From a virus: DNA of 53,010 nt. The stretch spans positions 1-53,010 of IMG/VR virus record IMGVR_UViG_3300030202_000332, one strand, 5' to 3'. The position numbers were made by a program, and so were the translations under genes. Positions 17,109 to 50,739 of the stretch are shown here, in pieces. Numbering within the stretch: the first letter of the stretch is position 1; every line of letters begins with the position of its first letter. The notes below the pieces were generated by a model that searched no databases, was not told where the DNA came from, and saw only the letters and a list, made by a program, of their open reading frames with translations.

Positions 17109-18797
17109 TTATCCTAAAGTTGCTCCTGTTATTATATTCCTTTCTAACTCTTGAGCTGTTGATACATCTCCACTAACTACAAAGGCTTGTATTGGTGCTT
17201 GTTGTTGTTCTCCTAAAGCTGAAGCTAGTGCATTAGCTCCTCCTCCACCTGCTAAGTTAAATTGTGGAGGTATTGATTCTGCTACAGATGGACTTGAAAT
17301 TGATGGCGCTGATATACTAACACTACCACCTGCACTACCTGCACCTGCTGAAGCCATAGATGCAGCTTGTTTAGTTTTACCAATAGCTTGTTTTACTGCT
17401 GATATAATTCCAACCGCCTGAGCTGCATAAGCTATTAATAAAGGTATGTTTTGTGGAAAACCTACTTTAGCGGTTTCTGCGCTACCTGCTGCTACTGCAC
17501 TACCTGCTTTAGCTCCATCTACTGTAGCTTCTACTGCAGCTTGTTGAGCTTTAATTAAAGTTTTCTTAACCTCTAATATGTTTTCCCTAGCTGCTAATAA
17601 TGTTTTAGCTACTAAGATAGCTTTACCTAATCTACTTTCTTCTCCTGCTAATCTAACTGCTGTATTAAATGTATGTTCTCTAATTGCTATCTTTTGTGCC
17701 TCTATTTCTTTTTCTCTTTGTAATCTAGCCAATTGATCTGCCGCTGCCTGAGCATCAGCTTCTTTTTGCTTTTTAATTTCCTCATCTTGCCTAGCTTTTA
17801 ATGTCTCAAAAGTTTCTCTATTCACAAAACCAACACCTGGTATAAAGAAATTATTTTCAGCAAACTCTTTCTCTGCTGCTCTTTGCTGATCTAATAAAGC
17901 TTTTCTCGCTGCGGCTTCCTCTGCTGTAAATGCAATTATTTGCCCTGTTACTTCTTTTTGTTTTGTTAGTCTAGCTTGTTCTAGTCTAATTAATTCTGCT
18001 TTTAAATTTGCCTCCTCATCTAAATCCTCTTTAGTTGATCCACTTAGTTCATTCTCAGCTTGTTTAGCTTGTAGTCTTAATTTAGCAGCCTCTATTTCTT
18101 TGTTTGTAATATCTTGCTCTACTTTACCTGCTTCTTTAAGAAACTCAATTCTTTCTTGTACTGTAAATTTTTCTTTGTTTACAGATTGCTCTAAAAGTTC
18201 AGCTCTCTTTCTATCAGCCTCTGCTCTTTCTACTATTAACTCTCTTTGTTGTTTATCAGCCTTAGCTCTAAGATCTGAAAGCTCACCTGCTATTGCTATT
18301 TCTTTACGAGTTTCTTCTCCAAAGTTTTTAATACCCTCTGTTACATCATTTAATGCCTCGCCTGCTGCTTTAAAGTTACCTGTGAAGACATTAAACATTA
18401 CATTACCAAAATCACTAATAATGTCAATTACGTTTCCTGTAACAACGCCTATTTGAGTCATTAGTTTAGCAAATCTATTTTGTCCCTCTTCTGAGTTTTT
18501 AAACATTGCAACAAGTGATCCTATAGCTAAAACTAAAGCTCCAACACCTGTAGCTAATATTGCTACTCTTAAATTCTTAAAGCTTTTTACTACATTACCT
18601 ATAGTACCTCTTAGACTTTTAAATTTAGTAATAGCTCCACCTGTAGTGCTATCTAATATATTCCCTAATTCCTCTTGAGATTCTGTAGTTTTATCTACTT
18701 GCTTTTCTAACTTAGAATACTCTTTCTGCATTTCATCTAAGTTAGCTACAGCCTCTTTGTATCTTAACTCAAAATCTATATAGACTTTCTTTGCCAT
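17109..18797 (-). CDS. Tail tape measure protein
   Basis: 562 residues, mostly helical. Coiled coil at 10-60, a hydrophobic block near 80-105 (VAILATGVGALVLAIGSLVAMF), long charged coiled coils to about 380, then a Gly/Ala/Ser-rich C-terminus. The hydrophobic block in a coiled-coil protein is typical of tape measures, which line the tail lumen and set its length. A short tape measure implies a tail under about 100 nm. Upstream gene order (chaperone, neck, tail proteins) supports this. The C-terminal 100 residues match unit B; the N-terminus does not. Confidence 0.75.
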   Translation of the reverse strand: MAKKVYIDFELRYKEAVANLDEMQKEYSKLEKQVDKTTESQEELGNILDSTTGGAITKFKSLRGTIGNVVKSFKNLRVAILATGVGALVLAIGSLVAMFKNSEEGQNRFAKLMTQIGVVTGNVIDIISDFGNVMFNVFTGNFKAAGEALNDVTEGIKNFGEETRKEIAIAGELSDLRAKADKQQRELIVERAEADRKRAELLEQSVNKEKFTVQERIEFLKEAGKVEQDITNKEIEAAKLRLQAKQAENELSGSTKEDLDEEANLKAELIRLEQARLTKQKEVTGQIIAFTAEEAAARKALLDQQRAAEKEFAENNFFIPGVGFVNRETFETLKARQDEEIKKQKEADAQAAADQLARLQREKEIEAQKIAIREHTFNTAVRLAGEESRLGKAILVAKTLLAARENILEVKKTLIKAQQAAVEATVDGAKAGSAVAAGSAETAKVGFPQNIPLLIAYAAQAVGIISAVKQAIGKTKQAASMASAGAGSAGGSVSISAPSISSPSVAESIPPQFNLAGGGGANALASALGEQQQAPIQAFVVSGDVSTAQELERNIITGATLG

Positions 18798-22090: not shown

Positions 22091-22609
22091 TTAGTTTTTA
22101 TTCATATTCTCAGGGAAAAATCTTTTATCTTGTTCTATATCAAAGACAAATGCCTCAGCTAATTCATCTGGTATATATTTAAAGGCTCTTTGAAAAGGTT
22201 TAGTAAAAAAGTAACTAGGTTTTATTCCGTGTAAAAATATACTTCTAGCTACTGCATATTGTAAAGACTTTCTCTTAACAAATTTACCTGACTCATCTCT
22301 AGTACCCTCTAATCCTTTTCTTACTACCCATTGACTAAATGCTGAGGGTGGTGGCATCTTGTTTGTGTATTTATAAGGCGTGTTATATTTTGTCTTAGTA
22401 CCACTTACCCCTAAATCTTGAAAAGCACCATAGTCATCCATACTAAATAAAAGATCTATAGAATCTTTATACTCATTAATTCTGTACTCTAAGCTATCAT
22501 ATAGGTTTTTAGTAACATTCTTTTTTTCTCTTGTAAGATTAGTTCTAGCCTGTTGTATAACATACTTAGCAAACTTGTTTAATATTTCTTTGGTATCTTT
22601 TAGTCGCAT
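22091..22609 (-). CDS. HK97 gp10-like head-tail joining/tail completion protein
   Basis: 172 residues. VIQQARTNLTREKKNVTKNLYDSLEYRI followed by SMDDYGAFQDLGVSGTK and MPPPSAFSQWVVRKGLEG. The helix-then-YxxFQDxGVxG pattern fits gp10/neck-type tail-completion proteins. It overlaps the upstream gene by 10 nt. Conserved core in unit B (49,030-49,542). Confidence 0.7.
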   Translation of the reverse strand: MRLKDTKEILNKFAKYVIQQARTNLTREKKNVTKNLYDSLEYRINEYKDSIDLLFSMDDYGAFQDLGVSGTKTKYNTPYKYTNKMPPPSAFSQWVVRKGLEGTRDESGKFVKRKSLQYAVARSIFLHGIKPSYFFTKPFQRAFKYIPDELAEAFVFDIEQDKRFFPENMNKN

Positions 22610-23073
22610 AAGTTTATATCGTTTTGTACAAACACATCAAAAGTACAAGTCACACCTGCCATCTCATTTTCAAATCTTTCATAAAAGAATTCACAACTAG
22701 CATCCCCTGTTAATTGGTATTTATTAAAATGTATTGTGCCTTGCCTTAATGCTCCTACTAATCTGTTTACTACTGCTAATTGTGTATTGATTACATCCTG
22801 CTCATTATTGTTACCTCTAAATATATCAGTAGTTTCTTCTTTGCTGAGGTTTACTAAGTCCATAGCTAATACACTTATATTAAATTGTAACACCTCTTCT
22901 GTTATTGTAACACTATTTATTATAATATGAGATAAAGGAAAGATTGTTTGTTTAGATAAGTCTATTTCTGTTATATCCCCTGTTGTTACAGTATTAACAT
23001 TATTATCAGCTAATAACTGATCCTTTATAGTTTGTGTTATTTGATAATATCCTCTTACCCCTTGATTACTCAT
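22600..23073 (-). CDS. Tail terminator/neck protein candidate
   Basis: 157 residues: GVRGYYQITQTIKDQLLAD, VNTVTTGDITEIDLSKQTIFPLSHIIINS, LQFNISVLAMDLVN and CEFFYERFENEMAGVTCTFDVF. Alpha-beta-beta layout with a final strand matches tail-terminator (gpU-like) proteins. About 90 percent identical to unit B. In A its start overlaps the 43-residue membrane gene; in B it overlaps the frameshift product directly. Confidence 0.65.
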   Translation of the reverse strand: MSNQGVRGYYQITQTIKDQLLADNNVNTVTTGDITEIDLSKQTIFPLSHIIINSVTITEEVLQFNISVLAMDLVNLSKEETTDIFRGNNNEQDVINTQLAVVNRLVGALRQGTIHFNKYQLTGDASCEFFYERFENEMAGVTCTFDVFVQNDINLCD

Positions 23074-23197
23074 TTATATTTCTTTTTTTTCTTATTGTTA
23101 TATACAGCATAGGAAGTGCTGCTAATATGATAAATGTAAATAGATTTAGATGTGGCTCTCCACAAAGTCCTAATAAGTGTTTAATAGTTTCTATCAT
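23066..23197 (-). CDS. 43-residue membrane peptide METIKHLLGLCGEPHLNL
   Basis: MIETIKHLLGLCGEPHLNLF, then a hydrophobic helix (FIILAALPMLYITI) and a basic end. Its ATG overlaps the stop of the frameshifted chaperone (ATGA), and its TAA lies inside the next gene's start (8-nt overlap). Unit B has no such gene here, but the same N-terminal peptide (METIKHILGICGESHLNL) starts the 447-residue exported protein at 35,275. A type of small phage membrane protein seen in Bacteroidota; possibly lysis-related. Confidence 0.7.
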   Translation of the reverse strand: MIETIKHLLGLCGEPHLNLFTFIILAALPMLYITIRKKRNINE

Positions 23198-23930
23198 TTT
23201 TTCATTTTCTTTTTAATTTGATTAGCCTCATAGTCTGCCTTATCTTTCATATAGCTTAATGCATATAAACATTCGTGCATACTTAGCTTAGTGATATCTT
23301 TAAATCTTCTAATATCTCCTTGAGCGAGTCCGTGAATTGATTGATACCACCCCCATTTTCTTCCAAAATTAGCCTCTGAGCTGAGTTCATCTCCTCCTCC
23401 TGTAAATAGCTCAGCATAGTTTTCGATAAGTCCATCCCTAAATGATAAAAAAAAACAATAGAGCCTAATACTGCATCCATCGGCATATCTTTCATTAAAT
23501 CAGACTTATCACCTTTGTATTCCTCTATTAAATACTTATTGCTGTATCTTTGAATAATAGGGCGGTATAAAACACCCATAGCCTTTTCAATATTATCAAA
23601 GTCTCCTATATAAGTATCTAAATCTACATACTCACCAAAAGTCATTTCTTCAATATTTGGTATAAACCCATACTCTACTCCATTAATAGTAAACTCTTTT
23701 ACCAGTGGAGGCGTTTCTTTAAACATCTCTGATAATACGTTAGTAATATCTCGTATGCTAGTAGCCCTCATCTTTAGAATTAAATCTGATCTAATACCAC
23801 AAAATATTTCAATCATTTTGATAGCTAGAAAAGATTCATCATCATTATTATCTTGTATCTTTAAAAACTTTTGATACTGAGCTAAAGTTATCTCGTTAAG
23901 AGAATTAGGTACTATTACTTCTTTTCTCAT
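23194..23930 (-). CDS. Tail assembly chaperone, -1 frameshift fusion (GT-like)
   Basis: If ribosomes slip back one base on the U9 run, 161 zero-frame residues continue into 84 residues of the -1 frame (245 aa). The extension reads LSFRDGLIENYAELF, then FGRKWGWYQSIHGLAQGDIR and MHECLYALSYMKDKA, a pattern common to T-domain extensions. Unit B gives a 245-residue product with the same motifs in the same frame. Stop TGA overlaps the next ATG. Confidence 0.8.
23283..23930 (-). CDS. Tail assembly chaperone, zero-frame product (G-like)
   Basis: 215 residues: PNSLNEITLAQYQKFLKIQD, IEIFCGIRSDLILKM, then YGFIPNIEEMTFGEYVDLDTYIG and GSIVFFYHLGMDLSKTM. Helical protein upstream of tail genes. At codons 159-161 the mRNA has a run of nine U; the downstream -1 frame stays open and conserved, so this is the short form of a G/GT-type chaperone pair that loads the tape measure. 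Late element 5 nt before ATG. Confidence 0.8.
   Translation of the reverse strand: MRKEVIVPNSLNEITLAQYQKFLKIQDNNDDESFLAIKMIEIFCGIRSDLILKMRATSIRDITNVLSEMFKETPPLVKEFTINGVEYGFIPNIEEMTFGEYVDLDTYIGDFDNIEKAMGVLYRPIIQRYSNKYLIEEYKGDKSDLMKDMPMDAVLGSIVFFYHLGMDLSKTMLSYLQEEEMNSAQRLILEENGGGINQFTDSLKEILEDLKISLS
23447..23455 (-). promoter_or_regulatory. Programmed -1 frameshift slippery site (U9)
   Basis: Minus strand GTT TTT TTT TAT: nine T, containing the X XXY YYZ-type heptamer T TTT TTT. Conserved at 50,256-50,264 including the following ATCATTTAGGGATGGA, although flanking codons differ. Confidence 0.8.
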
Positions 23931-23964: not shown

Positions 23965-25170
23965 CTAACTTATAGTGTACTTACCTCTACTAGGGTTTTT
24001 AAGTTGGAAACTTACAGCGTATCTTACTGCATCTATTAAATGGTTAAATTTGTCTATAGGTGTGTTAGACTTTCTTTCTAACCAAGAGTAGTTGTTTAGT
24101 TCTTTGATGAGGTTAATACTATCCTCGCTTATCACTAAATCATAATCCTGTAATAACGATATACCATATGTTACACTACCTTGCCCTTTTACACTAGGCT
24201 TTACATTACATCCTTTTGATCGTATCTCACTAATTAGTCTAGGCTCAGCACTATCAGCTACTATTAAGCCATCTTTAGCGTGTTGTTGATTTAAGCGTGT
24301 TATTTCGCTTGTAGTTAAGCTAGGTAAGTAAAAACACTCTTTAAGGTATATTCGTTTATTAGAAGTGTCTATATTGGTTTCTATTAGCGTTGTAGGATCA
24401 TTACTAAATCCATAATCTTGCCCCCATACGCTTACACCTACTTTCTTAAACTCACCAATACTCCAATTACTAAATATTACGCCCTCTGCTTTATCTAACC
24501 ATCCACCCATTATAGCGTGTTTGTATTTTAGTGGGCGTCTTACTTTTAATTCGTTTATTTGCTTTAAAAATGATTCTGATAGGTTTTCTAGATTGTCTTG
24601 GTAGGTAGTGTGTATGTAAGTACAATTATCTTTGGTGTTATTGCTACCCTCTTGTACTCCTTTATCCTCAAAGAATCTTTGATATATCCAATGCTCTTTA
24701 GTAGTAGGGTTAAGTATTAATATTATCCTGTTTTGGTTTTTAGTTTCTCGTATTGTTAAATCTATCTTATCAAACGTACCCTCATCTGTTAATTCCTCAG
24801 CCTCATCTAATACCCAAGTAGTAACACCTGTAATAGATTTAAGATTTGCTGTTTGATCTCCTGATGATGTTTTAATACCCTTAAATACTATCTTACTTCC
24901 TGATCTTATATTTATTATTTCATCTTTGGTTATGTGAAAGTCGTCAAACTTATCTAAGAGTTCTATCTTCTCTATAAATTCAGGTATAATAGAAACATAT
25001 GCTGAGGTTAGTGTATATCTAGTGAATAGTATTGTGTGGTTTGCCTCGTATGTTAGCAGCACTAGCATTAAGTTAACAGAAAATGATTTACCAGAAGCTC
25101 TACCTCCTGTTATTACATAATATCTAGTATCATTACCAATAGCTTGGTATTTAGTGTTTATATCAATCAC
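23965..25170 (-). CDS. terL: Terminase large subunit (Terminase_3 type)
   Basis: 401 residues. ATPase: Walker A GGRASGKS at 22-29, Walker B TTWVLDEAEEL near 120, and a coupling NPTTKEHW. RNase-H-like nuclease: VWGQDYGFSNDPTTLIE (first Asp), VADSAEPRLISE (second Asp), FNHLIDAVRYAV (third Asp). Full-length packaging motor that cuts and pumps DNA into proheads. Only the very end (KNPSRGKYTIS) closely resembles the unit B enzyme; the two are different Terminase_3 lineages. 4-nt overlap with terS. Confidence 0.9.
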   Translation of the reverse strand: MIDINTKYQAIGNDTRYYVITGGRASGKSFSVNLMLVLLTYEANHTILFTRYTLTSAYVSIIPEFIEKIELLDKFDDFHITKDEIINIRSGSKIVFKGIKTSSGDQTANLKSITGVTTWVLDEAEELTDEGTFDKIDLTIRETKNQNRIILILNPTTKEHWIYQRFFEDKGVQEGSNNTKDNCTYIHTTYQDNLENLSESFLKQINELKVRRPLKYKHAIMGGWLDKAEGVIFSNWSIGEFKKVGVSVWGQDYGFSNDPTTLIETNIDTSNKRIYLKECFYLPSLTTSEITRLNQQHAKDGLIVADSAEPRLISEIRSKGCNVKPSVKGQGSVTYGISLLQDYDLVISEDSINLIKELNNYSWLERKSNTPIDKFNHLIDAVRYAVSFQLKNPSRGKYTIS

Positions 25171-26230: not shown

Positions 26231-26589
26231 TCTGTTCCTGATATTATTTGATCGTGTGGTATTCTGTAAGTTCCAAACTGTTCATCATAACCATCATTAA
26301 ACTTATCTCCCTCGATCTCTTTTTGGAGATGGGCAAGGCTGCGCCAAGCAATCTTTGCTGAGTGGCGTACCCCATCAATATCATACATACCATTTTCCAT
26401 TAAGTGTCGCATAAGTGCATCTAAGTCATCACTACTCTTTTCTCTGTCCCAATGTATATCTTCGTCTGGGTGATGTTGTTTACTTCCTATGTAGCTAACT
26501 CTTGCTACTTCGCATAAAGCGTCAGGAAAGTATTTTATTAGCCCTCTATACAAGGGTGTCTCTTTTCTCTTTTGTTTGTTCTTTTCCAT
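26227..26589 (-). CDS. DUF5664 (dATP/dGTP diphosphohydrolase N-terminal domain-like)
   Basis: 120 residues: YRGLIKYFPDALCEVARVSYIGSKQHHPDEDIHW, then SSDDLDALMRHLMENG and HSAKIAWRSLAHLQKEIE. The PDAL.EVARVS..G..QH...I.W pattern and paired helices match DUF5664, the N-terminal domain of phage dNTP diphosphohydrolases; alone it is common in phages of many hosts. It may alter the nucleotide pool. 4-nt overlap with the methyltransferase and 44 nt with the upstream gene. Confidence 0.75.
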   Translation of the reverse strand: MEKNKQKRKETPLYRGLIKYFPDALCEVARVSYIGSKQHHPDEDIHWDREKSSDDLDALMRHLMENGMYDIDGVRHSAKIAWRSLAHLQKEIEGDKFNDGYDEQFGTYRIPHDQIISGTE

Positions 26590-26986
26590 CTATTTCTTTT
26601 AAGGGTAATGTATCAACTATCATCAAAAGTTTCTTTAAGTCCTTTGATTTTGTGTAGTCTACTATGTGGTTTATTAATGCTTTTCTTAATTTTGATTTGT
26701 TTCTTAGTCTAAGTAAGATAATATCAAAATACTTATCTAATAAAGGATTATATCTTCTATGCGTTTCAAACGCCTTTAAACTATATATAGCTGTGGAGTG
26801 ATCATAACTCTTTCCTTTAGATATATAAAAATCTTTTATTTCCATAAACTTCATTCTACAATGATGTCTTAACATAAACGTAAGTAAACTTCTTATCTCT
26901 ACAAATTCTCTTTTCCTAGAGTTTTTAAATACATCTATTCCTGATACATCTATTATATGTCTTGCTATTTTATTTGCCTCTTTCAT
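26546..26986 (-). CDS. DnaA domain IV-like DNA-binding protein
   Basis: 146 residues. EFVEIRSLLTFMLRHHCRMKFMEIKDFYISKGKSYDHSTAIYSLKAFE follows the DnaA C-terminal pattern: R at the start of an HTH helix and a (R/Y)DHSTxxxS(L/H) signature loop. There is no ATPase domain. DnaA domain IV binds origin boxes; a free phage copy could bind the phage origin or titrate host DnaA. The last 15 codons overlap the DUF5664 gene in another frame. Confidence 0.7.
   Translation of the reverse strand: MKEANKIARHIIDVSGIDVFKNSRKREFVEIRSLLTFMLRHHCRMKFMEIKDFYISKGKSYDHSTAIYSLKAFETHRRYNPLLDKYFDIILLRLRNKSKLRKALINHIVDYTKSKDLKKLLMIVDTLPLKEIDGKEQTKEKRDTLV
26663..26760. repeat. Internal copy of the right terminal 98 bases
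   Basis: Identical to 52,913-53,010, the last 98 bases of the window. The first mismatch lies at 26,662/52,912. It is inside the DnaA-IV-like gene. Confidence 0.85.
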
Positions 26987-27756
26987 AATGTTCCTTTTAT
27001 GCAGTAACTGTCTAAGTCTGCTCCGTTAATAAAAAATGTTTCAAATGTTTCTAATGCTCTGGTTACTTTTTCCTTTCCTGAATTATAAAACTCCTCACTC
27101 ACATCATATATGCCAATGTCTAGTGAGCCTTTGTCTATAGCTGCAAATTGAAACTGATCATATGTTTTGTTAAATAATTCACAATATAAATAGACTTGTA
27201 CATCATAACCGTACTTTTTTGCAGCATAGGGAAATGCTTTTAAATCGCTTGTTGTTTTTAAATCGCATAGTCTGTAAGAATCTAAGACATCTGCCTTGCC
27301 TCTAAACGGATAGCCTTGAATCATTCCTATTGCAGGGACTTCAAACTCGCAGTCAGTAATAAGTTTTAAAGCGTGTTCGTTTCTTAAAAACGCATCGGCT
27401 AATCTTTCTGCATCATTCTTTTGTTTCATTGTAAATACCTTTCCGTGTTCTTCTTTGGCTAACTTATAAGCCTTAGTGTTCTTAGATTGTACATCTACAA
27501 AGATTTGCTCCTGAAAAATATTAGGCTCAAGAATACAGGTATGAAAAAGCCAACCTGCATCTAAAGCATTTGATTCTTGTGATCCGTATTCCGTGACGTA
27601 TTTGTATTTCTTAGGACTATCTAAGAGTAGTTTGATTGATGAGGAGCTTAATGCTGCTTTGCCTAAGTATCCATAATAGAACTCATCATCTTTCATAAGT
27701 TCTAATATCTCATCGTGTTTAAATATTTCTCCGTTTAAGAGTTCAATAGTATCCAT
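26983..27756 (-). CDS. PD-(D/E)XK exonuclease (RecE/DUF3799-like)
   Basis: 257 residues. ALSSSSIKLLLDSPKKYKY and a conserved ALDAGWLFHTCILEP His motif lead to PFRGKADVLDSYRLCDLKTTSDLKAF (D...D-x-K) and YDVQVYLYCELF (QxxxY). These are the RecB/Cas4-type motifs of phage 5'-3' exonucleases in the PDDEXK_1/DUF3799 group. Likely partners are the ssDNA-binding candidates in recombination-dependent replication. 4-nt overlap with the DnaA-IV-like gene. Its unit B copy falls outside the window. Confidence 0.8.
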   Translation of the reverse strand: MDTIELLNGEIFKHDEILELMKDDEFYYGYLGKAALSSSSIKLLLDSPKKYKYVTEYGSQESNALDAGWLFHTCILEPNIFQEQIFVDVQSKNTKAYKLAKEEHGKVFTMKQKNDAERLADAFLRNEHALKLITDCEFEVPAIGMIQGYPFRGKADVLDSYRLCDLKTTSDLKAFPYAAKKYGYDVQVYLYCELFNKTYDQFQFAAIDKGSLDIGIYDVSEEFYNSGKEKVTRALETFETFFINGADLDSYCIKGTL

Positions 27757-27824
27757 AGTAAAGTAAGTATTATGCCTAAGTAACTAAAGGCTACGGCTTT
27801 GATTTTGTTTTCGTATTTTTTCAA
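27735..27824 (-). CDS. 29-residue membrane peptide, TTG start
   Basis: TTG in a TTGA overlap with the stop of the 85-residue gene, then KKYENKIKAVAFSYLGIILT and a short hydrophobic end LLWILLNS. Single-pass membrane peptide overlapping the exonuclease start by 22 nt. Supported by the TTGA pattern of other genes here; there is no second copy in the window. Confidence 0.5.
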   Translation of the reverse strand: MKKYENKIKAVAFSYLGIILTLLWILLNS

Positions 27825-28078
27825 TTTGTTTTTATGTTAGTTTCTTCATTAGTGCTAAGATATACTCTTGAGTATTTTGGTGTTCTGTCGTATCTTGCTC
27901 TTTTAGATTCTTCCCCTACACTTGCTCTTGATCTTGCCTTATCTATATTACCACTGTGTATTAGCTGATTTTCTAAATCTATAATCTTATAGCGGTGCTT
28001 AACAAGTAGCCTCATAGCTTTATGAATTTTTTCTACTTCTTCTCTATAGGTGTCAAATATTTCGTTATAAATTGGCAT
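27821..28078 (-). CDS. Conserved small early protein
   Basis: 85 residues, complete copy of the gene cut at the window's left edge: MPIYNEIFDTYREEVEKIHKA, KHRYKIIDLENQLIHSG, then a basic SRASVGEESKRARYDRTPKY and an acidic-polar end. Helical then disordered; function unknown. It spans the inferred junction between the two genomes (27,878/27,879) without interruption. Confidence 0.8.
   Translation of the reverse strand: MPIYNEIFDTYREEVEKIHKAMRLLVKHRYKIIDLENQLIHSGNIDKARSRASVGEESKRARYDRTPKYSRVYLSTNEETNIKTN
27879..27955. repeat. Internal copy of the left terminal 77 bases
   Basis: Identical to 1-77. It marks the first base of unit B in register with the first base of the window. Confidence 0.85.
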
Positions 28079-28358
28079 ATTTTTTTAGTTTAAGTTTAAG
28101 TTTTTCGTTTTCTGCTTCTGCCTTTCTTGCTCTCTCTATAGCTCTGTTTTTTGATAGCCTGTATTCTGACAAAGCTTTTTTATAAAGTCTCTTATTGTTT
28201 AAATTTTCTTGAAAATAAAAAGTAAGTCTAGAAATAGCATCAGCCATCTCCTCTATGTTGCTTGTTTTTTTCTTATTGTATTGTTTTAGGATAATTCCAG
28301 ACAAAAGGCTAATGTCTCCCCAAATCTCCATCTCTTTTAAATTGTCTATCTTTCTCAA
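28065..28358 (-). CDS. Coiled-coil early protein, TTG start (unit B)
   Basis: 97 residues, homologue of 187-480 at about 80 percent identity. Same TTG start in TTGA overlap with the 35-residue membrane gene. The changed positions are mostly conservative, which supports the reading frame and start. Confidence 0.8.
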   Translation of the reverse strand: MRKIDNLKEMEIWGDISLLSGIILKQYNKKKTSNIEEMADAISRLTFYFQENLNNKRLYKKALSEYRLSKNRAIERARKAEAENEKLKLKLKKYANL

Positions 28359-33847: not shown

Positions 33848-33935
33848 TTTTCTTTCTTGGTTTTCTTTTTTTCTTTGGCTTGCTTCTTAGCTTGCTCCAA
33901 CAATTCTTAAAATAATCTTTTATTTTTTGTATCAT
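33834..33935 (-). CDS. 33-residue Lys-rich peptide (unit B only)
   Basis: MIQKIKDYFKNCWSKLRSKP, then KKKRKPRKKNANK. ATGA overlap with the upstream exported protein and 14 nt overlap with the endolysin. Highly cationic amphipathic start, so it could act on membranes. No unit A counterpart. Confidence 0.55.
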   Translation of the reverse strand: MIQKIKDYFKNCWSKLRSKPKKKRKPRKKNANK

Positions 33936-35275
33936 AATCTAAAATTTATACCTGCTGAGGTGTTAAATATTTCACTATCCCAGAACTTTGTATATTCCCC
34001 CTCAACAAAAAAACCTAAAGTTCTACTTAATTTCCAACCCATAATAAATCCTGCTTGATAATCGCTCCATTGCTCTGGCGATGAATCTTCTTTTAATCCA
34101 CCTAATCCCCAATTATTACGATTTAAATAGTTAAAGTCTGAATCTCCTTTAAAATATGTATGATAAGGTAAAATCCAATTTACATAAGAGTGCAACCAAA
34201 ATTTATTTCCTTTTTGATGGTAAAAATCAAATCCGACAATAGGAGCATACTCTGCATAAGGATCAAGCGTATCCCATATTTCATTATTATATCTATTCAT
34301 CAATCCACCAAATATTTCATCTCTAAATTGTAAATCTGTATAAGCAACGGTTTCACCTTGAGGATTAATCCAATACCAGTCAGACATTTCATTTCCGTTT
34401 TGATCAGTAGAAGTGTAGTATATATCATCATAACCATACATAAAACCTAAGCTATACCAAGGATTTACAGGATACTCAAAAACATTACCCTGAGAGTCTG
34501 TATATGAATCAGTTTCATTTAACCAAATTTCAATAGGATTATAACCATACGCTTTTTGATGAGTTCTTGCAATAATTCCCCCAGAGATACTAAACTTTTT
34601 ACCAATAGGTAATCGTAACCTTGCCTCTGCTGACTGATATTTGAAACCTACGTTTCCCTGTTCTCTTTGTTCTAATTTTAAAATGTGGTTTTTTCCTGTA
34701 TGTCTTATAAAATATCTAGAGTTTGTAAATGTTTCTCCTCTACGTCTTTCTTTTTCAAAGTGTAATAAATACTCAAATCCTTTAACTGCGGCAGTTGGAG
34801 CTGATAATGATTTATTATTTTCTGTTCCGTCATAATAATGCTTGGCTTTTATTTCATAATCGAATCTTGCTAGTTTTCTAAAACCAAAACCTATTCTATA
34901 ATCAAAAGGGTGATATATTGTTTGATCTATTACTTGAGGTACGTCATAAAGGTTTTCTGGATTTGTTCTTACAAAGTAATCTTTTCTTTGTTGTTCGTAA
35001 GAGTTACTAGCATCTCCTGCTAGATATAAAGTTCCATATTTAAAAAACTCTTTATATATATTATTAAAGAATGTTCTCTTTTTTTTTAATCTCTCTTGTG
35101 TTATTACTTGTGCAGATGCTCCAACAAATACAAACATAAAAAGTAAAGCAATAAGTTTTTTTTGTTTTTTGATAAGTTTAAAAGTAAAATACAAAACACT
35201 TAAAATAAATGCTATGTGAATTAAATTTAAATGACTTTCTCCGCATATTCCTAAGATGTGCTTTATTGTTTCCAT
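33932..35275 (-). CDS. Exported beta-rich protein fused to a small membrane peptide (unit B)
   Basis: 447 residues. Residues 1-40 (METIKHILGICGESHLNL plus a hydrophobic helix and KLIKKQKK) match the separate 43-residue membrane gene of unit A at 23,066. A second hydrophobic stretch KKLIALLFMFVFVGASAQ is a signal peptide like that of the unit A barrel candidate. The body shares SAEARLRLPIGKKFSISGGI, GFDFYHQKGNKFWLH and a terminal strand SAGINFRL with 5853-6950. If an internal start at the MFVFVG Met were used, the signal would be incomplete. Confidence 0.6.
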   Translation of the reverse strand: METIKHILGICGESHLNLIHIAFILSVLYFTFKLIKKQKKLIALLFMFVFVGASAQVITQERLKKKRTFFNNIYKEFFKYGTLYLAGDASNSYEQQRKDYFVRTNPENLYDVPQVIDQTIYHPFDYRIGFGFRKLARFDYEIKAKHYYDGTENNKSLSAPTAAVKGFEYLLHFEKERRRGETFTNSRYFIRHTGKNHILKLEQREQGNVGFKYQSAEARLRLPIGKKFSISGGIIARTHQKAYGYNPIEIWLNETDSYTDSQGNVFEYPVNPWYSLGFMYGYDDIYYTSTDQNGNEMSDWYWINPQGETVAYTDLQFRDEIFGGLMNRYNNEIWDTLDPYAEYAPIVGFDFYHQKGNKFWLHSYVNWILPYHTYFKGDSDFNYLNRNNWGLGGLKEDSSPEQWSDYQAGFIMGWKLSRTLGFFVEGEYTKFWDSEIFNTSAGINFRL

Positions 35276-49030: not shown

Positions 49031-49542
49031 TATTTATTATTGTTAGGTATAATTATTGAATTGTCTAAATCATCTGCAAAAGCATTTTGTAAATCATCAG
49101 GTAATCTTTTAAATGCTGCGTTAAAAGGTTTAGTAAAAAACATACTAGGCTTTATTCCGTATTTAAATATGTTTTTAGCTACTGCATATTGTAATGATTT
49201 TCTACTTAAAAATTTGCCTGTCTTTTTATCTCTAGTTCCTTCTAAACCTTTTCTTACTACCCATTGACTAAAAGCAGATGGAGGAGGCATTTTTGTAGTA
49301 TAGCTATAAGGTGTGTTGTATTTCTTTTTAGTACCACTTACTCCTTTATCTTGAAATTTACCGTAATCATCCATTATAAAATTTATACCAATAGCATTAC
49401 TACCTTTGAACATCTTATAGTCTAAGCTATTATATAAACTTTTGCTTACATTCATTTTCCTTTTAGTTAAATTAGTTCTCGCTTGTTGGATCACATATTT
49501 ACCAAATTTATTTAAAGTCTCTTTTGTTTCTTTTAGTTGCAT
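49030..49542 (-). CDS. HK97 gp10-like tail completion protein (unit B)
   Basis: 170 residues. YVIQQARTNLTKRKMNVSKS, FIMDDYGKFQDKGVSGTKKK, PPPSAFSQWVVRKGLEGTRD. Homologue of 22,091-22,609. Confidence 0.7.
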   Translation of the reverse strand: MQLKETKETLNKFGKYVIQQARTNLTKRKMNVSKSLYNSLDYKMFKGSNAIGINFIMDDYGKFQDKGVSGTKKKYNTPYSYTTKMPPPSAFSQWVVRKGLEGTRDKKTGKFLSRKSLQYAVAKNIFKYGIKPSMFFTKPFNAAFKRLPDDLQNAFADDLDNSIIIPNNNK

Positions 49543-50006
49543 AAGTTTATATCGTTTGCTACAAATACATCAAAGGTGCAAGTTACTCCTGCCATTTCAT
49601 TCTCAAATCTTTCATAAAAGAACTCACAAGAAGCATCTCCTACTAATTGGTATAAATCTAAATGTATTGTCCCTTGCCTTAATGCTCCAATTAATTTATT
49701 AACCACAGCTAATTGAGTATTGATAACATCTTGCTCATTATTGTTTCCTCTGAATATATCTGTTGTTTCTTCTTTGCTGAGGTTTACTAAGTCCATTGCT
49801 AAAACACTTATGTTAAATTGAAGTACTTGTTCTTGTATTGTAACATTGTTTACTATAATATGGCTTAAAGGAAATATAGTTTGTTTAGATAAATCTATTT
49901 CTGTGATGTCGCCTGTTGTTACAGTATTGACATTTACATCAGCTAACAACTGTGTTTTAATTGTTTCTGTTATTTGATAAAATCCTCTTACTCCTTGATT
50001 GCTCAT
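49533..50006 (-). CDS. Tail terminator/neck protein candidate (unit B)
   Basis: 157 residues, about 90 percent identical to 22,600-23,073. Its ATG overlaps the TGA of the frameshifted chaperone directly, since the membrane peptide gene is absent here. Confidence 0.65.
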   Translation of the reverse strand: MSNQGVRGFYQITETIKTQLLADVNVNTVTTGDITEIDLSKQTIFPLSHIIVNNVTIQEQVLQFNISVLAMDLVNLSKEETTDIFRGNNNEQDVINTQLAVVNKLIGALRQGTIHLDLYQLVGDASCEFFYERFENEMAGVTCTFDVFVANDINLCN

Positions 50007-50739
50007 CTTTTTATTTTACTTTTAATTTGTTTAGCTTCTAGCTCTGCTTTCTCTTTCATAAAACTTAATGCATAAAGACAAGTATGCACATTCAATTTAG
50101 TGATATCTTCAAGTCTTGTAATGTCTGAATTAGCGAGGCTGAAAATTGATTGAAACCAACCCCATTTTTTTCCAAAGTTTCTTGTTGGGCTAAACTCATC
50201 GCCTCCCCCTCCAAATAACTCAGCATAGTTTTCGACAAGTCCATCCCTAAATGATAAAAAAAAAGTATGGAACTTAACACAGCATCCATCGGCATATCTT
50301 TCATTATATTATCTTCATCACCTTTATAATCTTCTATTAAATATTTTTCTTTATGTCTTTGCTTAATGGGACGATAAAGAACATTCATTGCTTTGTGTAG
50401 GTTTTCAAAATCCCCTATGTATGTGTCAAGATCAACATATTCTCCAAAGCTCATATCTTCTAGCATAGGAATAAAACCATATTCTATGTTATTTATTTTA
50501 AACTTCCTTACTAAAGGTGGCTTCTCATTAAACATTTCAGAAAGAACACCTGTGATGTCTTTTATGCTTTTAGCTTTCATCGCTAATATTGTATCGCCTC
50601 TTAGTCCACAGAATATCTCTATCATTTTAATAGCTAAGAAGTTTTCATCTTCGTTGTCATCTTGGATTTTTAAATACTTTTGATATTGCCCTAAAGTTAT
50701 TTCACTTAAGGTGCTAGGAATATTTACTTTTACTTTCAT
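50003..50739 (-). CDS. Tail assembly chaperone, -1 frameshift fusion (unit B)
   Basis: 245 residues after -1 slippage at codon 161, exactly the unit A length. The extension reads LSFRDGLVENYAELF, NFGKKWGWFQSIFSLANSDI and VHTCLYALSFMKEKAELEAK. Amino-acid conservation of this frame, while overlapping zero-frame codons differ, is strong evidence that it is translated. Confidence 0.8.
50092..50739 (-). CDS. Tail assembly chaperone, zero-frame product (unit B)
   Basis: 215 residues, same length as 23,283-23,930: STLSEITLGQYQKYLKIQDD, YGFIPMLEDMSFGEYVDLDT and SILFFYHLGMDLSKTM. Late element 5 nt before ATG. Confidence 0.8.
   Translation of the reverse strand: MKVKVNIPSTLSEITLGQYQKYLKIQDDNEDENFLAIKMIEIFCGLRGDTILAMKAKSIKDITGVLSEMFNEKPPLVRKFKINNIEYGFIPMLEDMSFGEYVDLDTYIGDFENLHKAMNVLYRPIKQRHKEKYLIEDYKGDEDNIMKDMPMDAVLSSILFFYHLGMDLSKTMLSYLEGEAMSLAQQETLEKNGVGFNQFSASLIQTLQDLKISLN
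50256..50264 (-). promoter_or_regulatory. Programmed -1 frameshift slippery site (unit B)
   Basis: Minus strand CTT TTT TTT TAT, nine T, at the same codon position (159-161) as in unit A. Confidence 0.8.

Follow-up and report, generated by a model that had tools for sequence, protein, structure and literature searches.

The expression of two protein forms through a slip in the reading frame is typical of tail chaperones, whose gene customarily, if not universally, lies directly upstream of the tape measure gene, and lambda-type tail genes use ribosomal shifting for this. Neither a stimulatory structure nor an SD-like element is obligatory for a -1 ribosomal frameshift. Two-form tail chaperones made by -1 recoding have already been described in lambda, in HK97 and in many other phages (PMC5009743; PMC3711429; PMC10885494). 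Nine A or T are also enough for bacterial RNA polymerase to slip efficiently in vivo, the hybrid within the enzyme being 9-10 bp in length (reviewed in PMC5009743).

The 53,010-bp virus record described here, which at its full length is called the window, consists of two related phage units, A and B, with all main genes on the minus strand (Table 1). In each of them, a gene located directly after terL carries a run of nine T's (the T9 gene). It is proposed that one start would give rise to two proteins, namely a 215-aa product made of the core and a short zero-frame tail, and a minority form of 245 aa, in which the frame would change to -1 at the nine T's, adding an 84-aa helical domain. Most likely, core and long form serve as tail-assembly chaperones in the manner of lambda gpG and gpGT, holding the tape measure, while the extension would recruit another tail component. 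The slip would need the homopolymer but no RNA structure. RNA polymerase slippage, with U10 transcripts that would then be translated in the -1 frame, is slightly more likely as its cause than a ribosomal slip on U_UUU_UUU, and the two may both contribute. Taken as a whole, this account of a chaperone-like, two-form slip product, with the polymerase placed slightly ahead of the ribosome at T9, is considered moderately probable.

Table 1. Features of the T9 gene and its surroundings in units A and B of the window
Feature	Position	Strand	Basis
Terminase large subunit (terL), upstream neighbour	23965..25170	-	Pfam Terminase_3/3C, PHROGs
Zero-frame ORF, 215 aa, directly after terL: core codons 1-161 and 54-codon zero-frame tail; stop 23283-23285	23283..23930	-	ORF reading
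Shared core, codons 1-161, in both predicted products	23448..23930	-	Translation, model, alignment
T9 slip site GTT.TTT.TTT.TAT, contains U_UUU_UUU	23447..23455	-	Sequence and relatives
Predicted -1 extension, 84 codons, LSFRDGL...FGRKWGWYQSI...CLYALSYMKDKA	23197..23448	-	Relatives; helical model
-1 frame stop TGA overlapping next ATG (ATGA)	23194..23196	-	Sequence
43-aa ORF with one hydrophobic segment, begins in ATGA overlap; in unit A, not in unit B	23066..23197	-	ORF reading
157-aa gene (phrog_30964, unknown); in unit B directly the next downstream gene	22600..23073	-	ORF list, PHROGs
172-aa gene, weak neck1-like / neck-tail-completion family match (phrog_5, E 0.23)	22091-22609		PHROGs
562-aa tape-measure-like protein, downstream of 157-, 172-, 320- and 733-aa genes	17109..18797	-	Weak phrog_3336 match, E 0.0012
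215-aa zero-frame ORF of the unit B homologue	50092..50739	-	ORF reading
Unit B T9 slip site CTT.TTT.TTT.TAT	50256..50264	-	Sequence
84-codon -1 extension in unit B, with a stop (50003-50005) that overlaps the ATG start of 157-aa gene 49533..50006	50006..50257	-	Sequence

The locus and its predicted products

Unit A is organized in the order terL, T9 gene, genes of 43, 157, 172, 320, 733 and 562 aa, protease and capsid-like gene, with the portal further on. Codons 159-162 of its T9 gene read GTT TTT TTT TAT, so that the run extends from the second base of codon 159 to the first base of codon 162, and the U_UUU_UUU heptamer lies within it in the correct phase. From the slip the -1 frame stays open for 84 codons, up to a TGA, and the predicted fusion therefore measures 161 + 84 = 245 aa. 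On these points the first-pass annotation, which had claimed a U9 run at codons 159-161 and an open -1 frame of 84 codons leading to a 245-residue fusion, was borne out by the coordinates. Its argument that the operon spacing fits the -1 stop also held, as the TGA overlaps the next ATG, an arrangement found in 80 of 83 loci. This ATG opens the 43-aa ORF in unit A and the 157-aa gene in unit B, where the layout is otherwise identical (T9, 84-codon -1 frame, stop overlapping the downstream start). A start similar to that of the 43-aa ORF is also present in several relatives (L004, L008, L054). Within the ORFs of the window, the two slip sites are the only coding-strand T9 runs; an A9 run is located at 35079-35087 (-) inside the unit B ORF 33932-35275.

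The core model is well folded, with pLDDT of about 90, and residues 189-215 of the zero-frame tail fall below 50. The length of this tail differs by lineage, from 16 to 88 codons past the slip, and it appears to matter less than the -1 extension. The latter keeps a FxxKWGWYxS...CLxxLxxxKxK pattern across relatives with 26-79% identity, and its model is helical, the second half reaching a pLDDT of about 80-90; against PDB structures it gave low-Z rows alone and no informative match.

With regard to the window itself, the two units lie head to tail over 1-53010 and meet near 26766; compared segment by segment, they are about 68-94% identical. At window position 26765 a separate 26.8-kb contig (L001/G001) stops, with 100% identity over 466 compared bases, and a unit-B-like contig (G002) spans 26300-28300 contiguously at 98%. 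The double-unit window is either an assembly chimera or two phages joined in a natural concatemer. Such double units, whether tandem or chimeric, are met more than once, as another contig, IMGVR_UViG_3300030061_000336 (47,685 bp; L096, L143), holds two differing copies of the T9 gene.

An invariant T run, two constrained frames and in-frame fusions

Relatives were gathered with three kinds of query, namely the zero-frame product, the extension and the core domain alone, giving 377 relatives that represent 297 unique sites. The run was T9 in 287 of these sites and T10 in the other 10, never shorter and never longer (L296, first scored 8, has a T9 run that was truncated by the limits of the scanned stretch), and none of the 297 frameshifted sites had a shorter or non-T slip site. 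All 80 loci returned by the zero-frame product query against IMG/VR had their T9 at one and the same codon, with an open -1 frame of at least 80 codons wherever the contig was long enough. A homology search of the 84-residue extension, proposed in the first-pass annotation as a check, gave T9 in 79/79 fetched loci, and a more distant extension query in 80/80. Relatives of the Nonlabens phage protein, at 25-99% identity (mostly near 30%), had T9 or T10 in 63/63, with T10 in L176. The core-only query returned T9 or T10 in 77/77, and its alignment ends four codons before the slip and is thus unable to select for it. All 377 relatives have a WGWY-type motif in an open -1 frame, and this frame is open in every untruncated one. 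One of the loci, L164 (JABDKL010000020.1, Winogradskyella sp. MAG), is a 3.15-kb contig with the end of terL, the T9 gene and next-gene homologues; its binning with a Winogradskyella genome either hints at the host or reflects a phage fragment caught in the bin.

From the slip to the zero-frame stop, dual coding would be expected to constrain both frames, with single -1 coding beyond it. By synonymous codon resampling of the zero frame in the overlap, the -1 frame would stay open by chance with P = 0.014 in unit A, 0.003 in unit B and 0.0001 in two relatives, and the reverse resampling test gave P = 0.001-0.002. Pairwise comparison of 53 dereplicated loci gave differences of 0.174/0.113/0.396 at codon positions 1/2/3 before the slip, 0.132/0.183/0.212 in the overlap and, read in -1, 0.159/0.097/0.372 past the zero-frame stop, as single, double and then single coding would predict. 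Synonymous variation drops at about codon 156-161 and remains low up to that stop.

Homopolymers are prone to errors, which would speak for an assembly or sequencing indel, or else for an accidental overlapping frame devoid of function. Such a reading is very improbable: the kept run at 297 unique sites already refutes it, an identical T9 is present in both units of the window, in the isolate genomes JQ823122 and JQ823123 and in hundreds of contigs, and both frames are under purifying selection. A chance open frame and a sequencing error were thus ruled out by the resampling, the substitution pattern and the conservation of the 297 sites. Separate initiation of the extension was also rejected, since upstream of the slip the -1 frame is open for just 3-56 codons and fused homologues argue for one protein.

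In these homologues, from cultured flavophages and a Microcystis phage, a single ORF covers both core and extension; they include the Flavobacterium phages 23T and FPSV-F7 (293 aa) and laban6-1 (301 aa), Cellulophaga phage Ingeline (301 aa), Polaribacter phage Leef (259 aa) and Microcystis phage Mea-Yong924-1 (274 aa). MAFFT alignment is continuous across the junction (VFFLSFRD versus LFFASCQHF and LFFEGCQAH) and continues into the extension (FGKKWGWFQSIFSLANSD versus RFGWYKFYVAMAGPK). Because relatives encode both parts in one in-frame ORF, core and extension form one protein in nature, and the 245-aa fusion is very probably real. The slip site, the two constrained frames and the fusion architecture are established at the level of sequence, from which we infer the expression of both forms.

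Relatives found by Foldseek against BFVD include Flavobacterium phage 6H, to whose protein the core profile aligned by hhalign with E 2e-5 over 119 columns, with common GEYVD and YR motifs. In 6H the core is a 191-aa ORF (L236:10352-10927), compared with the 293-aa ORF of 23T and FPSV-F7 (L402:1501-2382); since the DNA at the junction differs from that of 23T and FPSV-F7, 6H is frame-broken there in the deposited sequence. In three in-frame relatives (L403, L404, L406), a -1 shift at the homologous TTTTTT (LFF junction, TTTTTTG) would run into a stop after no more than 0-10 codons and so produce the short form by the mirror-image route; this may be chance, given the few cases.

The slipping step and the role of the protein

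The locus had been described as a programmed -1 frameshift; the comparative data uphold the change of frame, whereas polymerase slippage fits them as well as the ribosomal event originally assumed, and perhaps better. A pure ribosomal frameshift on U_UUU_UUU as in lambda G/GT, in which the extra T's would result from amino-acid constraint alone, is a serious contender that nevertheless falls somewhat short of an even chance. An X_XXY_YYZ heptamer is present in the correct phase in every case, always as U_UUU_UUU, which agrees with the ribosomal shifting of lambda-type tail genes, and a middle T is common to the residues that prevail at codon 159 (usually V/L/I) and at the -1 codon (L/F). In reporter tests, 6-7% shifting was reported for two fs-genes of a tail chaperone cluster (PMC3711429). 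However, the heptamer alone would permit T7 or T8, and neither was seen in any of the 297 sites, which implicates the run length itself. While the run stays at 9 or 10 across the 297 sites, codon 162 varies (TAT, TAC, TGG, TCG, TTC, TTG, TTT), and at the four sites without a middle T in codon 159 (AGT in one clade comprising L296, L372 and L393, AAT in L383) the run is still 9 or 10, with codon 162 starting with TT or TTT. Such a start was found in 4/4 of these sites versus 6/293 of the others (Fisher p 7e-7, uncorrected for descent, with about two independent events). As conserved hydrophobic residues of both frames also put T's at the flanks of the run, it is on these roughly two independent compensations that selection for run length rests. 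A downstream hairpin or pseudoknot, which could have stimulated a ribosomal shift, left no energy signal in 25 diverse sequences over three windows (mean z of about 0). The pattern expected for transcriptional slippage, a run of at least nine A or T whose length itself is kept, was found in 297/297 sites. Since the run is never shorter than nine, matching the 9-10 bp hybrid of RNA polymerase, transcriptional slippage is slightly favoured, and on the sequence pattern we infer that it is slightly more likely than a purely ribosomal shift.

The assignment to G/GT-type tail chaperones made in the first-pass annotation received moderate support, from a weak fold match to HK97 gp13 and the two predicted product forms, although neither a match to a tail assembly chaperone (TAC) family nor the position of the gene spoke for it. 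In the VIA-align comparison of the core model, the HK97 tail assembly chaperone 2ob9 came first, with Z 4.4 and rmsd 3.3 over 63 aligned residues (model residues 1-71), a match that is weak or suggestive by the guide of the tool itself; the following rows were unrelated, with Z of 2.8 and below. Foldseek of the core against the PDB gave no significant match, and in BFVD the rows named tail assembly chaperone or tail assembly protein were near threshold. Phrog_166, a 'tail protein' family, matched 8 of 24 diverse cores with a best E of 0.001 (about residues 11-75 in the two shown), and PHROG 32199, of unknown function, spans the core. Neither a TAC family nor another informative match was found in Pfam, NCBIfam or PDB sequences, and PHROGs and hhalign detected no sequence homology to the chaperones of lambda (G), HK97 (gp13), Mu (gp41) and TP901-1 or to T4 gp26. 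The TAC families are themselves mutually divergent, lambda G matching phrog_344 with just E 0.049. The trait of the G/GT type, a conserved -1 change giving a core and a C-terminally extended form, was found on comparative evidence.

Both forms could also be real and belong to another head-tail or neck assembly protein encoded between terL and the completion genes, which we regard as possible but less than likely. It would suit a gene that comes after terL, or after portal/adaptor in Ingeline, and that matches no TAC family by sequence, and its neighbour at 22091-22609 bears a weak likeness to a neck/tail-completion family. The T9 gene is indeed neither directly upstream of the tape measure nor placed between it and the tail tube, four larger genes separating it from the tape-measure-like gene. 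A 174-aa protein was picked out by eye as a candidate for the tail tube. On the other hand, two-form expression by a slip is typical of tail chaperones, the fold comparison ranks HK97 gp13 first, the BFVD rows of tail assembly chaperones and tail assembly proteins come near threshold, and in Ingeline just two genes lie between the homologue and the annotated downstream tape measure. A tail chaperone is therefore a plausible identity for the T9 gene product, and on our analysis it most likely works like gpG/gpGT.

Comparison with known systems

The closest isolates are the Nonlabens (Persicivirga) phages P12024S and P12024L, in which the same gene (genes 38-39 and 40-41, respectively) follows terL with an identical T9 and the same -1 extension, of which WSWYHTFNVIAASNGYFGLEK would be a peptide in P12024S. 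Their product has 27% identity to that of the T9 gene and a zero-frame tail of just 25 codons. Part of the extension was deposited as a separate 55-aa hypothetical gene, and the frameshift is thus not annotated in these genomes. The homologues from Duneviridae, Helgolandviridae and a Microcystis phage (23T, laban6-1, Ingeline, Leef, Mea-Yong924-1) align end to end with the T9 gene in core and extension, but consist of one in-frame ORF of 259-301 aa without the T9 site.

The outcomes of this comparison provide a likely function and correct boundaries for an unannotated structural gene of abundant marine and freshwater phages, whose long product is missed or split by standard gene calling. Such a gene represents a clean natural test case of ribosomal versus polymerase slippage, in which the in-frame relatives of the same fusion serve as an internal control for the slip site. 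To our knowledge, the T9/T10 run is among the most strictly conserved homopolymer slip sites in phages. Tentatively, RNA polymerase slippage at an invariant T run of 9-10 nt, the length of the RNA-DNA hybrid, might take the place of ribosomal frameshifting in a large clade of aquatic Bacteroidota phages as the source of a two-form tail chaperone, with the zero-frame tail retained and overlapping up to about 88 codons of the extension. No published description of this T9 site, or of a tail chaperone made by transcriptional slippage, was found in the open-access literature.

Among described cases of transcriptional slippage, Thermus thermophilus dnaX and Shigella mxiE/spa (PMC5009743) share with the T9 gene a homopolymer signal of about nine A/T and two products with different C-termini; the genes are unrelated, and at the T9 gene polymerase slippage is a candidate. 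Like the T9 gene, lambda gpG/gpGT and HK97 gp13/gp14 derive two products from one start, and HK97 gp13 is a weak fold match to core residues 1-71. Compared with these chaperones, however, the T9 gene has a T9/T10 slip run, keeps its zero frame open for 16-88 codons past the slip, follows terL without adjoining the tape measure, and presents no detected sequence similarity. Thus, in relation to known chaperone recoding, the new elements appear to be a run that is always T9 or T10, a long overlap with dual coding and a location next to terL, on its downstream side.
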